A stretch of 46,252 nucleotides of DNA from Caldanaerobacter subterraneus. Lineage in GTDB: Bacteria; Bacillota; Thermoanaerobacteria; Thermoanaerobacterales; Thermoanaerobacteraceae. The stretch covers positions 1-46,252 of the forward strand of contig NZ_SLWU01000020.1 of NCBI RefSeq assembly GCF_004345675.1. The letters are read 5' to 3'. Of this stretch, positions 996-5,697 are shown one piece after another (within the stretch, counting starts at the first letter, position 1; every line of letters starts with the position of its first letter). The translations under genes and the position numbers were made by a program. A model generated the notes under the pieces. The model made no database searches. It was not told where the DNA came from and saw only the letters and a program-made list of their open reading frames with translations.

Positions 996-2672
996 TTACT
1001 TAATTTTGCTAAGTTCATCAATAAATGCTGGTCTTTTTTTATACAACCTCATTAGCTCATTTATAATTTCTTTTTGGCTTTGCTCTCCTGCTATTTTTTT
1101 ATATCTTTTAAGTATTCCACATACTTTTTGATAGTCTTTTCTATTTGATGAAGAGCTTGCAGCAAGTTTTATATATTTTTTGTACACTTCAATAACTTCA
1201 TCTTTAAACTTATCTTTTAGCTTATCTGCATATTCTTCTATTCTTGTTGGGTTTTCTTTTACAAACTCCATAAGCTCATCCAAGTCATTTTCTTCTAATA
1301 TGACCTTAAGATAAATATCTTTCCCATGCCATCCCTTATAGTTCTTTAATTCTTGTTTTAAATTATTGTAAAACTCTGCTCTATCGCCAGTAATTAATTC
1401 CTTTAGTTCTCGATAGTATTCAAAATTTCCATCAAACAAAAGCTCTTTTGCCAATTTCATTTGTTCTTCTTTTAATGAAAGCTTTTTATAGGCTTCATAT
1501 CTCATCTTTTTCCATTTTGATACTAAACCAGGATATTGCCTGTCTTGTTCCTCCCACTTTAAAGCTAACTCTATGACTTTCTCATACTCTTTTTCTCTAA
1601 AACACTTTTGAATAAACACTTCTTTAAAAAAGTCAAATTCAAGATGTTCTTGTACGAATTGTTCTGCTTCTTCTCTACTCCCATATCTCTCTTTTATCAC
1701 ATAAAGAATTTGAAGTAATTTTTCAGTAATATATTTTCCATAGCGATTCTCGGTAGACCAATTACTTACAAGATATTCTATTTTCGACACCAGTTTATCT
1801 CTCAGTTCCTCTATGTCAACAAAGTCAGCACAAAGCCAAAGTATATCAATTCTGTAACTTTCCCATCCATCAAAAATTTTACTTTCACTTAATGTCAATA
1901 ACCTACTAAATATTTCCTTTTTTAAATTTATATCTAAGTTTTCGCTCCGGAATACTATGTCTCCTATAACTTCTATGGCGTCTGATACCAACAAATCTAT
2001 ACTTCCACCCGAATCATCTGCGTATTCAAAAGCCTGTATCGCTTCTTCAAGTACTAAAAATGCAATATCCAATGCTAAGAATATATCTTCAGTATCTCTG
2101 GCTTTCCACAATAAATCTTCCATTTCACTTACAAAATCATATGTTTCATTATAGGAAATAAAACCATCTCTGCCCTTATATTTCCTAACAATAGAATTTA
2201 TTAGTTTTCTGCACCTTATAAGTTCTTGTTTACTGTCAACCTTTGAATATCTTAAGACGATCCTATTTTTTAAAGTTTCATCGTCTCCTATTAAATCCAT
2301 TATAATATCTATTAACTCTTCTTTTGAAAGATTGTCTAATACTTCTTTTATATCCTGCTGTTCTTTAGCTCTTTTCTGTACATTTGAAGCTTCATTTTGA
2401 CTGCTAAAAATCTCCACCAGTTTATAAAAAGCTGCTACCTGATGTTTACAAATAGGACCATAATCATAGGGGCAATTACATTCTGAATAGAGAATTTCCC
2501 CATTGTCATCTAGTTTTACCATAACCTCATAGTCATCACTACCTTGAATTTTAAAAATATATTCATTTTTTCCGGAATTATAAAGGTCTATTATGTTTCC
2601 TCCAACATAGTAATCGTAACCTCTATCTAAAATTATTTCATCGATATAGTCTTCAAAATCATATATGGTCAT
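996..2672 (-). CDS. SWIM zinc-finger protein
   Basis: The N-terminal ~85 residues hold a SWIM zinc finger. The metal ligands are Cys-X-Cys in the ECNCPYD segment and Cys-X-His in ICKH, about 10 residues apart. The remaining ~470 residues are helical and charged, resembling tetratricopeptide-like helical repeats, with no enzymatic motif that I recognise. SWIM domains are predicted DNA- or protein-binding modules and are often encoded next to SNF2-type helicases. No helicase gene is visible here, but the RQC-type gene lies just downstream. The ATG start is preceded by GAGAAAG, a modest ribosome site. Function unknown. Confidence 0.8.
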   Translation of the reverse strand: MTIYDFEDYIDEIILDRGYDYYVGGNIIDLYNSGKNEYIFKIQGSDDYEVMVKLDDNGEILYSECNCPYDYGPICKHQVAAFYKLVEIFSSQNEASNVQKRAKEQQDIKEVLDNLSKEELIDIIMDLIGDDETLKNRIVLRYSKVDSKQELIRCRKLINSIVRKYKGRDGFISYNETYDFVSEMEDLLWKARDTEDIFLALDIAFLVLEEAIQAFEYADDSGGSIDLLVSDAIEVIGDIVFRSENLDINLKKEIFSRLLTLSESKIFDGWESYRIDILWLCADFVDIEELRDKLVSKIEYLVSNWSTENRYGKYITEKLLQILYVIKERYGSREEAEQFVQEHLEFDFFKEVFIQKCFREKEYEKVIELALKWEEQDRQYPGLVSKWKKMRYEAYKKLSLKEEQMKLAKELLFDGNFEYYRELKELITGDRAEFYNNLKQELKNYKGWHGKDIYLKVILEENDLDELMEFVKENPTRIEEYADKLKDKFKDEVIEVYKKYIKLAASSSSNRKDYQKVCGILKRYKKIAGEQSQKEIINELMRLYKKRPAFIDELSKIK

Positions 2673-2787
2673 TTATACTTTCTCACCACTCTTTCTCAAA
2701 AAGACAACATTTAGTATTATTATCCAACCCCCACCAATTGCTATATAAGCAATTTTTTGTACTTTTATTATGTGGTTAATAATGTAC

Positions 2788-2877
2788 AATTGACCCACTC
2801 CCAGCAAAATTCACCTTGGGAGGATTGGAGGAAAATAAAAATGCTCGGGAGTAGGTCACTTATAGAGTGGGTCTATT
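2788..2877. repeat. 90-bp element with 13-bp terminal inverted repeats (MITE-like)
   Basis: AATTGACCCACTC (2788-2800) and GAGTGGGTCTATT (2865-2877) are inverted repeats with one mismatch. An internal inverted pair, ACTCCCAGC and GCTCGGGAGT, is nested inside. The ATTGACCCA core is the same as the repeats at the IS21-type end at 43851-43884. No clear target duplication was seen. The rest of the 2673-3057 gap holds only the promoter of the next gene. Confidence 0.45.
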
Positions 2878-2967
2878 CTTATGATATATTAACTTAAAAG
2901 CAAAAGCAATTCTATTTTTTGTACTTAGTAAGATTTCATAGGACAATAATTATATTCATCATTTTTG

Positions 2968-3057: not shown

Positions 3058-4563
3058 ATGGCTGTTGTGCTTAGTGAAAAAGAGAAAAAATGGATGGAAG
3101 GAGTAATCAAAGAGGAACAAATCACCAGATATCTTGAAAACGGAAGAGACTTCATTGACGACGAAGAAATATGGGAAAAACTGAGGAAAAACCAGAATCC
3201 TGATAAGCAGAGGATAAGAGAAATAATTCAAAAGTCACTAGAAATAGAAATTCTTGAACCTGATGAAACGGCTGCTCTTCTCAATGTTAAAGATCCTGAA
3301 CTATGGCAAGAAATTTTTGATGCAGCAGCAAAAATCAAGAAAAAAGTTTATGACAGCAGAATTGTAACCTTTGCGCCCCTTTATTGCAGCAACCTGTGTG
3401 TAAATAATTGCGTCTACTGCGGATTTAGGAGAGAAAATACAGTCATCAAAAGAAGAAGGTTAACATTAGAAGAAGTAAGAAGAGAAGCAGAAGTTCTAGC
3501 AGGAGAAATAGGCCATAAGCGTTTAATTGCAGTATATGGTGAGCATCCTACTACAGATGCTAAATATATTGCAGATACAATAAGAACTATATATGAAGTC
3601 AAAGTTAAAACAAAAAATGGATATGGGCAGATAAGAAGAGTAAATGTAAACGCCGCCCCCATGTCTATAGAAGAATTAGAAATGCTTCGGGATGTAGGAA
3701 TAGGAACCTATCAGGTTTTCCAAGAAACCTATCATCATGAGACCTATAAAAAGCTACACCCAGAAGGAACCATAAAATCCCATTATCAGTGGAGATTGTA
3801 CTGTCACCACCGAGCACTGGAAGCAGGAGTTGACGATGTAGCTTTGGGAGTGCTCTTTGGACTTTATGACTGGAGATTTGAAGTAATGGGTCTTTTATAT
3901 CACGCAAGAAATCTAGAGAAATTTTTTGGCATAGGACCTCATACCATATCTTTCCCAAGGTTAGAACCTGCTGCTAATACACCTTTTGCTCAAGAATCAA
4001 AATACAAAGTATCTGATGAAGATTTCAAAAAGTTAATAGCTGTCATAAGGCTTTCTGTACCTTATACTGGTATGATTCTAACCGCCAGAGAACCTGCTCA
4101 CTTAAGGGATGAAATTCTCTCCATGGGCATAGTCACTCAAACGGATGCTTCTACAAAAATTGGAATAGGCGCCTACTCTGACAGGTACACCGAGCAGGAA
4201 GCAGAGAGACAGCAGTTCCTGCTAGGGGATACCAGAAGCCTGGACGAATTGATAAGAGAACGGGCAAAAATGGGGTATATAACAAGTTTCTGCACAGCAG
4301 GTTACAGATGTGGAAGAACAGGCAAACACATAATGACCCTTTTAAAAACAGGAAGAGAAGCTGTTTTCTGCAAGCTAAACGCCGTACTCACTTTTAGAGA
4401 ATGGCTGGACGATTTTGCAAGCGAGGAAACAAAAATAGCCGGTGAACAAGTAATACAGAAAGAAATTGAAGAAATCAAAGAAAGAGTTCCCGCAGAAGTA
4501 TTTTCAAAGCTCATGGAGTATTACAGGAGGATACAGAATGGAGAAAGAGACCTCTACTTCTAA
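3058..4563 (+). CDS. HydG-like radical SAM enzyme with altered C-terminal cluster motif
   Basis: The protein has 501 residues and matches HydG, the radical SAM tyrosine lyase that makes the CO and CN ligands of [FeFe]-hydrogenase. The radical SAM cluster motif is Cys114-X3-Cys118-X2-Cys121 in CVNNCVYC, followed by the GFRREN segment. The C-terminal region keeps the HydG-like GRTG and EWLDD segments and a terminal RDLYF. Canonical HydG has CX2CX22C for its auxiliary iron-sulfur cluster. Here the pattern is Cys412-X5-Cys418-X19-Cys438: the second cysteine is moved three residues and Gly415 occupies its usual place. It is therefore a HydG or a HydG paralogue. No hydE or hydF lies nearby. A small gene overlaps its 3' end. 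Confidence 0.85.
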   Translation: MAVVLSEKEKKWMEGVIKEEQITRYLENGRDFIDDEEIWEKLRKNQNPDKQRIREIIQKSLEIEILEPDETAALLNVKDPELWQEIFDAAAKIKKKVYDSRIVTFAPLYCSNLCVNNCVYCGFRRENTVIKRRRLTLEEVRREAEVLAGEIGHKRLIAVYGEHPTTDAKYIADTIRTIYEVKVKTKNGYGQIRRVNVNAAPMSIEELEMLRDVGIGTYQVFQETYHHETYKKLHPEGTIKSHYQWRLYCHHRALEAGVDDVALGVLFGLYDWRFEVMGLLYHARNLEKFFGIGPHTISFPRLEPAANTPFAQESKYKVSDEDFKKLIAVIRLSVPYTGMILTAREPAHLRDEILSMGIVTQTDASTKIGIGAYSDRYTEQEAERQQFLLGDTRSLDELIRERAKMGYITSFCTAGYRCGRTGKHIMTLLKTGREAVFCKLNAVLTFREWLDDFASEETKIAGEQVIQKEIEEIKERVPAEVFSKLMEYYRRIQNGERDLYF

Positions 4564-4816
4564 GAAGCTATTGATCGAAGAATTTACCAGGCTCTCAGAC
4601 TTAATAAAATCAAAGTACGGCGTGAGCTTGTGGCTGGTGGAAATTATGGGAAAAAGGCATTCGTATGTAGCAGGCTATAAAGAGGAATCATTCCTTCCAC
4701 CCCAGGTTATTTATCTTAATGAGAGGTTTGCAATAGTATCAAATAATTGGGACAAAATTCCTGAAAAAGAAAAGAAAAAGCTTATCAATCACCTCAAGAA
4801 GTTCAGTGGCACATAA
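4538..4816 (+). CDS. Small uncharacterised protein coupled to the HydG-like gene
   Basis: This 92-residue protein starts at an ATG preceded by ACAGGAGGATACAG and overlaps the end of the HydG-like gene by 26 nt, so translation is likely coupled. It is soluble, lysine-rich and has a compact core with KYGVSLWLVEIMG and a repeated Ile/Val pattern. I see no cysteine, metal motif, signal peptide or membrane segment. I do not recognise the family. The tight overlap suggests a role with the radical SAM enzyme, but that is inference from position only. Confidence 0.7.
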   Translation: MEKETSTSKKLLIEEFTRLSDLIKSKYGVSLWLVEIMGKRHSYVAGYKEESFLPPQVIYLNERFAIVSNNWDKIPEKEKKKLINHLKKFSGT

Positions 4817-4835: not shown

Positions 4836-5564
4836 TTATCCCTCCTTCTCTTCAAATTTCATGGCAAATTCAACCGCTCCCATTTGGAAAAAAAGATGTG
4901 CTTTCCTTGAAAGTGGAGTCTCTTCAGGACTTACCTCTACTACAAAAGCTCCTCTTTCAAGGGCCAGAAAAGGAAGAGAAGCTGCAGGCTGCACCATTAA
5001 AGATGTACCAATCACAATAAAAAGGTCTGCTCTTTGTGACAGCTCCATAGCCTCTGTAAGCTTATCAGATGGGAGAGGTTCACCAAACCAGACCACATCT
5101 GGTCTTACAATAGATCCGCATTTCGGGCACTCAGGAGGTATTTTGCTTAAAGGCACTTCTCTATTTATGCCTCTGAAGTCACATTTTGTGCATTTTACTT
5201 TCTATATATTCCCATGAAGTTCTATCACATTTGTAGACCCTGCTGCCTCATGTAAGCCATCTACATTTTGCGTAATTACTCTTACATTTTTAAACCTTTC
5301 CTCAAACTCTGCAATGAGCAGATGACATTTATTGGGTTTCGCTTTAGAAATTATCTTTCTTCTATAATCATACCACTCCCAAACAAGAACAGGATTTCTT
5401 TGAAAAGCCCATGGCGTTGCAAGTTCTTCTGGATTGTACTTCTTCCATAGCCCATCTTCTCCTCTAAAAGTAGGTATCCCACTTTCTTTCGATATCCCTG
5501 CTCCTGTCAGCACAACCGTCAAATTCGATTGAGTTAGTTTTTCTTTCAATATTTTAAAATCCAT
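4836..5564 (-). pseudogene. NAD-dependent deacetylase (sirtuin, CobB/Sir2) interrupted by an in-frame TAG
   Basis: Read through, the frame gives 243 codons, the normal length of a bacterial sirtuin. It contains all key motifs: [15 protein letters not shown] for NAD binding, [12 protein letters not shown], the catalytic histidine in ELHGN, two zinc CxxC pairs (KCTKC and CPKC), and the GTSLMVQPA motif. A single TAG at 5202-5204 follows ELHGNI and separates the catalytic half from the zinc-binding half. Both halves are in the same frame, so this is a nonsense change, not a frameshift. The start at 5564 has GGGGAGGAAAAGAAA before it. The truncated product would lack zinc and much of the Rossmann fold, so it is probably inactive unless TAG is read through or is a sequencing error. 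Confidence 0.85.
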
Positions 5565-5697
5565 TTTCTTTTCCTCCCCTACATTTTTATCATTTAAAAA
5601 TTTCTCCTTCAATTTCAAAACTCCTTTTTTCAAAAAAGCAACAAAACTATGGTAAAATATATCCTGTAGACAAAACTTCTGAAAGGGGAGTCGGAAG

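Follow-up and report, generated by a model that had tools for sequence, protein, structure and literature searches.

The hydG locus

The window analysed here, a stretch of 46,252 nucleotides from Caldanaerobacter subterraneus (NZ_SLWU01000020.1, forward strand), carries a gene for a 501-residue [FeFe]-hydrogenase maturase, hydG (3058–4563, + strand), of a noncanonical kind referred to below as D-type. A small gene encoding 92 residues (4538–4816, + strand) overlaps its 3′ end. Further along the window, a Sir2-family deacetylase gene is split into two minus-strand parts (4836–5156 and 5202–5633), which align with the N- and C-terminal regions of the profile and represent either a frameshifted pseudogene or an assembly error.

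The larger product scores 464 bits against the HydG family model (NCBIfam TIGR03955), above the equivalog cut-off of 312, and 249.6 bits against the ThiH profile TIGR02351, below the cut-off of 380. Its relatives in the PDB are the canonical HydGs of T. italicus (4WCX) and C. hydrogenoformans (4RTB); homology is full-length, and the structure alignment gives 48% identity to 4WCX. An AlphaFold model (pLDDT 93.7) superposes on 4wcx_A from end to end (TM 0.97 by target length, rmsd 1.5). As had been proposed from the DNA alone, the radical SAM CX3CX2C motif (C114/C118/C121; 3397–3420, + strand) is intact. His295 (3940–3942, + strand) aligns with His265 of T. italicus HydG, which we take to be the ligand of the dangler iron.

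What has been established about HydG chemistry, tyrosine cleavage followed by CO/CN assembly on the dangler iron, comes from canonical enzymes. The accessible portions of that literature treat CX2CX22C as the usual HydG motif and as essential by mutation. The window protein departs from it. Translation of the region near the C terminus (4291–4371, + strand) gives S-F-C412-T-A-G415-Y-R-C418-G-R-T-G...F-C438, or CX5CX19C, bearing out the original prediction that the C412–C438 spacing is the same as in CX2CX22C, that the second cysteine lies at 418 and that Gly415 occupies its usual position. A sequencing error as the source of the shift is ruled out by a second genome of the genus, where a copy 97% identical to the window protein shows it too, and by its conservation in all 82 members of the closest group (below).

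A clade with a movable cysteine

The position of this protein among HydGs was examined in a comparison set of 169 sequences, 48 S-type (canonical) and 121 D-type, which includes further HydGs from the phylum. All 48 S-type sequences combine CX2CX22C with Thr343 and Ser363. In D-type sequences, residue 363 (4144–4146, + strand, in the window) is Asp throughout (121/121), and residue 343 (4084–4086, + strand; Ala in the window protein) is Ala (110), Cys (9), Val or Asn. All 169 share C412, C438, H295, R344 and the radical SAM cysteines. On a tree built without the class-defining columns, Asp363 changes once and the D-type clade receives an SH-aLRT of 100. A tree of HydG and its paralogues had been suggested as a check, and the result confines the motif to this one clade: all proteins with a shifted cysteine fall within it, and only there does the position of the second cysteine vary.

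Among the 121 D-type sequences, the second cysteine is C418 alone in 94, C415 alone in 16 and C423 alone in four; one has both C415 and C423, and six have no cysteine at 415, 418 or 423. C415 and C418 occur together in 0 of the 169 sequences. In the closest group (the window protein, its 97% copy and 80 relative loci), G415/C418 is present in 82/82. The four proteins with C423 alone (CX10CX14C; L004, L167, L169 and L170) form a separate D-type sub-branch.

C418 requires four changes on the tree and occurs in three separate lineages. A tree holding all C418 lineages together was rejected (p-AU 1e-42), as was one uniting the main C418 lineage with L168/L171 (p-AU 2e-6); in both cases the groups were named after the tree had been seen. 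A further AU test that grouped just the rows with C418 was discarded, since nested losses by themselves would lead to rejection. Too few pairs were available for an independent-pairs test of C415 versus C418, and the two AU tests took its place. Mutual exclusion of C415 and C418, together with the repeated origin of C418, would be expected if a cysteine at 418 can stand in for one at 415, although it does not prove ligation. We infer that Cys418 would most likely replace Cys415 as the second of three cysteines on the auxiliary [4Fe-4S] cluster, in a site that would keep Cys412, Cys438 and the dangler-binding His295.

The cluster could also have become relaxed or dispensable in the clade, with CO and CN released free rather than built on the dangler iron and with C418 being neutral. 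The six D-type members devoid of cysteine at 415, 418 and 423 (L174, L176, L178, L180, L183 and L186) come from HydA-bearing genomes, and in five of these cases the protein is the only HydG found there, which indicates that the third cysteine is not always needed; free CO/CN release by HydG is moreover discussed in PMC9431212. Such relaxation is nevertheless improbable given that C418 prevails in 94/121, never coexists with C415 and arose in separate lineages, and that H295, C412 and C438 do not vary. Of the two options first offered for the motif, a cluster bound in a new geometry or a HydG-like branch with a different product, the data fit better with an unchanged auxiliary cluster whose ligand has shifted. 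Changes in the substrate pocket, which the original prediction did not include, keep different chemistry partly open.

The tyrosine pocket

According to PMC9046217, ThiH grips the phenolate of tyrosine with T299, S318 and S321, and R306 lies beneath it; the paper calls all four residues strictly conserved in HydG. The ThiH lyase (7PD1) has the same radical SAM lyase core as the window protein, with R344 as the equivalent of Arg300, but lacks the C-terminal cluster domain and possesses an intact Thr299/Ser318/Ser321 crown. ThiH residues were mapped through chain 7PD1, with a ten-residue offset checked on E158, T299, R300, R306, S318 and S321. By this mapping, the counterparts of T299, S318, S321 and R306 are A343, D363, T366 and R350, respectively, and the phenolate crown of canonical HydG is not matched in the variant. 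Replacement of Thr by Ala343 and of Ser by Asp363 means that two of the four crown residues are changed in the D-type clade, where the crown overall reads A/C, D, T/S, R (with R replaced in 12/121). The altered pocket extends to more sequences than the cysteine shift and, judging by the tree, came before it: 17 D-type sequences keep C415. The window protein thus has neither CX2CX22C nor the Thr/Ser phenolate crown, two features that define the HydGs described so far.

A further difference concerns ThiH position 128, where a glutamate is said to compensate for E158N in HydG. The residue is Glu in 42/48 S-type and Val in 116/121 D-type sequences. Judged from these residues, either tyrosine may be bound differently in the D-type clade or the substrate may differ. 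One form of this idea is that the enzyme still produces CO and CN for the H-cluster but uses a different amino acid as substrate, or binds tyrosine as a neutral phenol, Asp363 acting as proton acceptor. Although the altered crown and the lost glutamate speak for it, it seems rather doubtful: R344 (ThiH R300), N198 and E162 are kept, the gene neighbourhood suggests no alternative substrate, and some canonical HydGs, such as that of C. hydrogenoformans, also lack the position-128 glutamate. The pocket residues would otherwise fit a tyrosine site rewired through Ala343, Asp363 and Val159, with the substrate phenol probably held via Asp363/Arg350 in place of the Thr/Ser crown.

Relatives and their gene neighbourhoods

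The best 80 relative loci taken from the genome collection (60–81% identity) come from Desulfobacterota, Omnitrophota, WOR-3, Mesoaciditogaceae, Spirochaetes, Neomarinimicrobiota, Planctomycetes, Archaeoglobaceae and others. Within the fetched flanks, 62/80 have hydE, hydF or hydA, and 22/80 have the gene for aspartate ammonia-lyase (aspA), a known companion of hyd genes (PMC11736057). No other HydG above the cut-off was present in 45 of the 47 variant-bearing genomes searched. HydA was found in 41/47 and HydF in 45/47; as many of these genomes are metagenome drafts, the absences may reflect gaps. HydA also exceeded the cut-off in 29/29 further genomes with D-type HydGs. In three Archaeoglobaceae loci (L043, L044 and L066), the variant hydG adjoins hydF and HydA-like genes.

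The CX5CX19C motif was already reported in 2022 for Clostridium autoethanogenum (PMC9431212), where the protein CLAU_RS03260 was assigned as HydG and variability of the cluster motif among HydGs was credited to a 2012 review; we liken the window protein to it by the reported motif rather than by sequence. In the sections of that paper available, the motif is listed for one strain and the clade, the pocket changes and the partner gene are not described. The original prediction had held that it would be refuted if the pattern turned up in many bona fide HydGs, and genomic evidence points to just such a set: G415 and C418 are present in 80/80 of the best relatives, and the motif had been noted in C. 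autoethanogenum.

These data bear on whether the protein might be a paralogue of HydG that makes something else and plays no part in hydrogenase maturation. In favour of such a paralogue are the fixed differences in the tyrosine pocket (Ala343, Asp363 and Val159) and in the auxiliary-cluster loop, and the location of hydG away from the other hyd genes in its own genome. It is nonetheless very improbable in light of the sole-HydG status in 45/47 genomes, mostly with HydA and HydF, the hydE/hydF/hydA/aspA neighbours, the HydA of all 29 further genomes and the scar left by its deletion in a sister species where canonical hydG is retained (see below). Of the suggestion that the enzyme belongs to a HydG-like branch with a different product, the branch thus stands, as one well-supported clade with fixed sites, whereas the different product does not fare well.

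A small partner gene

The small overlapping gene was correctly anticipated. Its ATG lies at 4538, with an AGGAGG ribosome-binding site (4525–4530) seven bases upstream, and its 92-codon frame overlaps hydG by 26 nt and ends by 4816. By profile, a homologue lies downstream of hydG in 61/121 D-type and 0/48 S-type loci, some with short flanks. The gene was present in 28/398 genomes of the phylum, in 25 of them directly downstream of the HydG match by coordinates; the other three are a deletion scar (G010), a locus probably split between contigs (G306) and one orphan. The orphan copy (L238; G240 contig 1, 117933–118139) contains one stop codon and lies away from the hydG of its genome.

The partner protein has a conserved core, G-(K/R)-R-x-S with an invariant Arg40, and its residues 1–8 are constrained by the hydG overlap. 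No credible Pfam or NCBIfam match was found in 39 members of the family, and none among PDB sequences. A structural model (pLDDT 89) displays an alpha-beta4-alpha arrangement. A GAF/roadblock-like fold was considered and not adopted, the matches being only middling (best Z 6.8; Foldseek E 0.6 or worse). Its genomic association suggests that the partner probably acts on or with the D-type HydG.

Maturases in the genome and the genus

The source genome (2.58 Mb in 79 contigs, listed as 100% complete) was inventoried for hyd genes by targeted searches. A second, canonical hydG, which had been proposed as something to look for, was not found; the other match in the HydG search is HydE, leaving the variant as the only HydG. 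HydE is accompanied by HydF (588 bits) and HydA (587 bits), both over their cut-offs, and the variant hydG lies away from the other hyd genes.

Most other genomes of the family possess a canonical hydG, approximately 48–50% identical to the variant. The site equivalent to that of the sister species' canonical hydG (contig C6) holds a flippase gene, then one for a TrpR/YerC-like protein and pcrA, and no hydG. Loss of a canonical copy in an assembly gap is ruled out, as this orthologous locus is continuous. Within the genus, genome G004 has both the variant and the canonical hydG, and sister genome G010 has only the canonical gene. At the locus corresponding to that of the variant hydG, the G010 DNA matches window positions 2401–2925 and then jumps to 4591–4666. 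The variant hydG was evidently deleted in G010: the upstream flank, bearing a SWIM gene, runs straight into a 76-bp piece of the small gene (L239:3894–3969) with 93% identity. With both genes in G004, this scar in G010 and the variant alone in the source genome, the two HydG types have been kept or lost in turn within the genus.

HydA is well conserved in the genus (90–91%). HydE and HydF of the source genome are divergent too, at 52% and 66% to those of its relatives, so this is not a clean swap of HydG alone, and all the maturation genes may have been exchanged together. The divergent full-length HydF is encoded on contig C4, and HydE on C25, adjoining a transposase-like ORF. A 167-residue C-terminal piece of HydF, 79% identical to the HydF of the relatives, is encoded on contig C11 (L126:7087–7590), where it adjoins the same transporter gene as in those genomes.

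Role and significance

By phylogeny, fold and genome context the window protein is a HydG, yet a noncanonical one. It resembles canonical HydG in its fold, radical SAM motif, His295, C412, C438 and the company of HydE, HydF and HydA, and differs in having its second auxiliary cysteine at 418 rather than 415, Ala343/Asp363 for Thr/Ser, and a partner gene. Its status as the sole HydG, the hyd neighbours of its relatives and the deletion scar beside a retained canonical hydG argue for an H-cluster maturase over a branch with an unrelated product. We consider it likely, with good confidence, that this D-type protein is the genome's H-cluster maturase, with Cys418 in place of Cys415, a rewired tyrosine site and a partner; it would supply the CO/CN-bearing iron unit for the H-cluster of the organism's own [FeFe]-hydrogenase. 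Sequence comparison thus points most likely to the same pathway, run with a relocated Cys418 ligand and a rewired tyrosine site. More tentatively, the clade could represent a second biochemical route to the H-cluster ligands, with a remodelled pocket, a movable cluster ligand and a dedicated small partner.

The D-type clade is a large, little-noticed branch of HydG. No description of the clade, its pocket changes or its partner gene was found in the literature searched, mostly open-access papers, and the clade with these two features appears to be new. Searches that require CX2CX22C will miss real HydGs, as was suspected for some acetogens in PMC9431212. Across many phyla and in some archaea the clade seems to work for the same hydrogenases even though it alters both the motif and the tyrosine crown, and it adds an undescribed partner protein; its members would therefore provide natural mutants for asking which cluster ligand and which pocket residues HydG needs.
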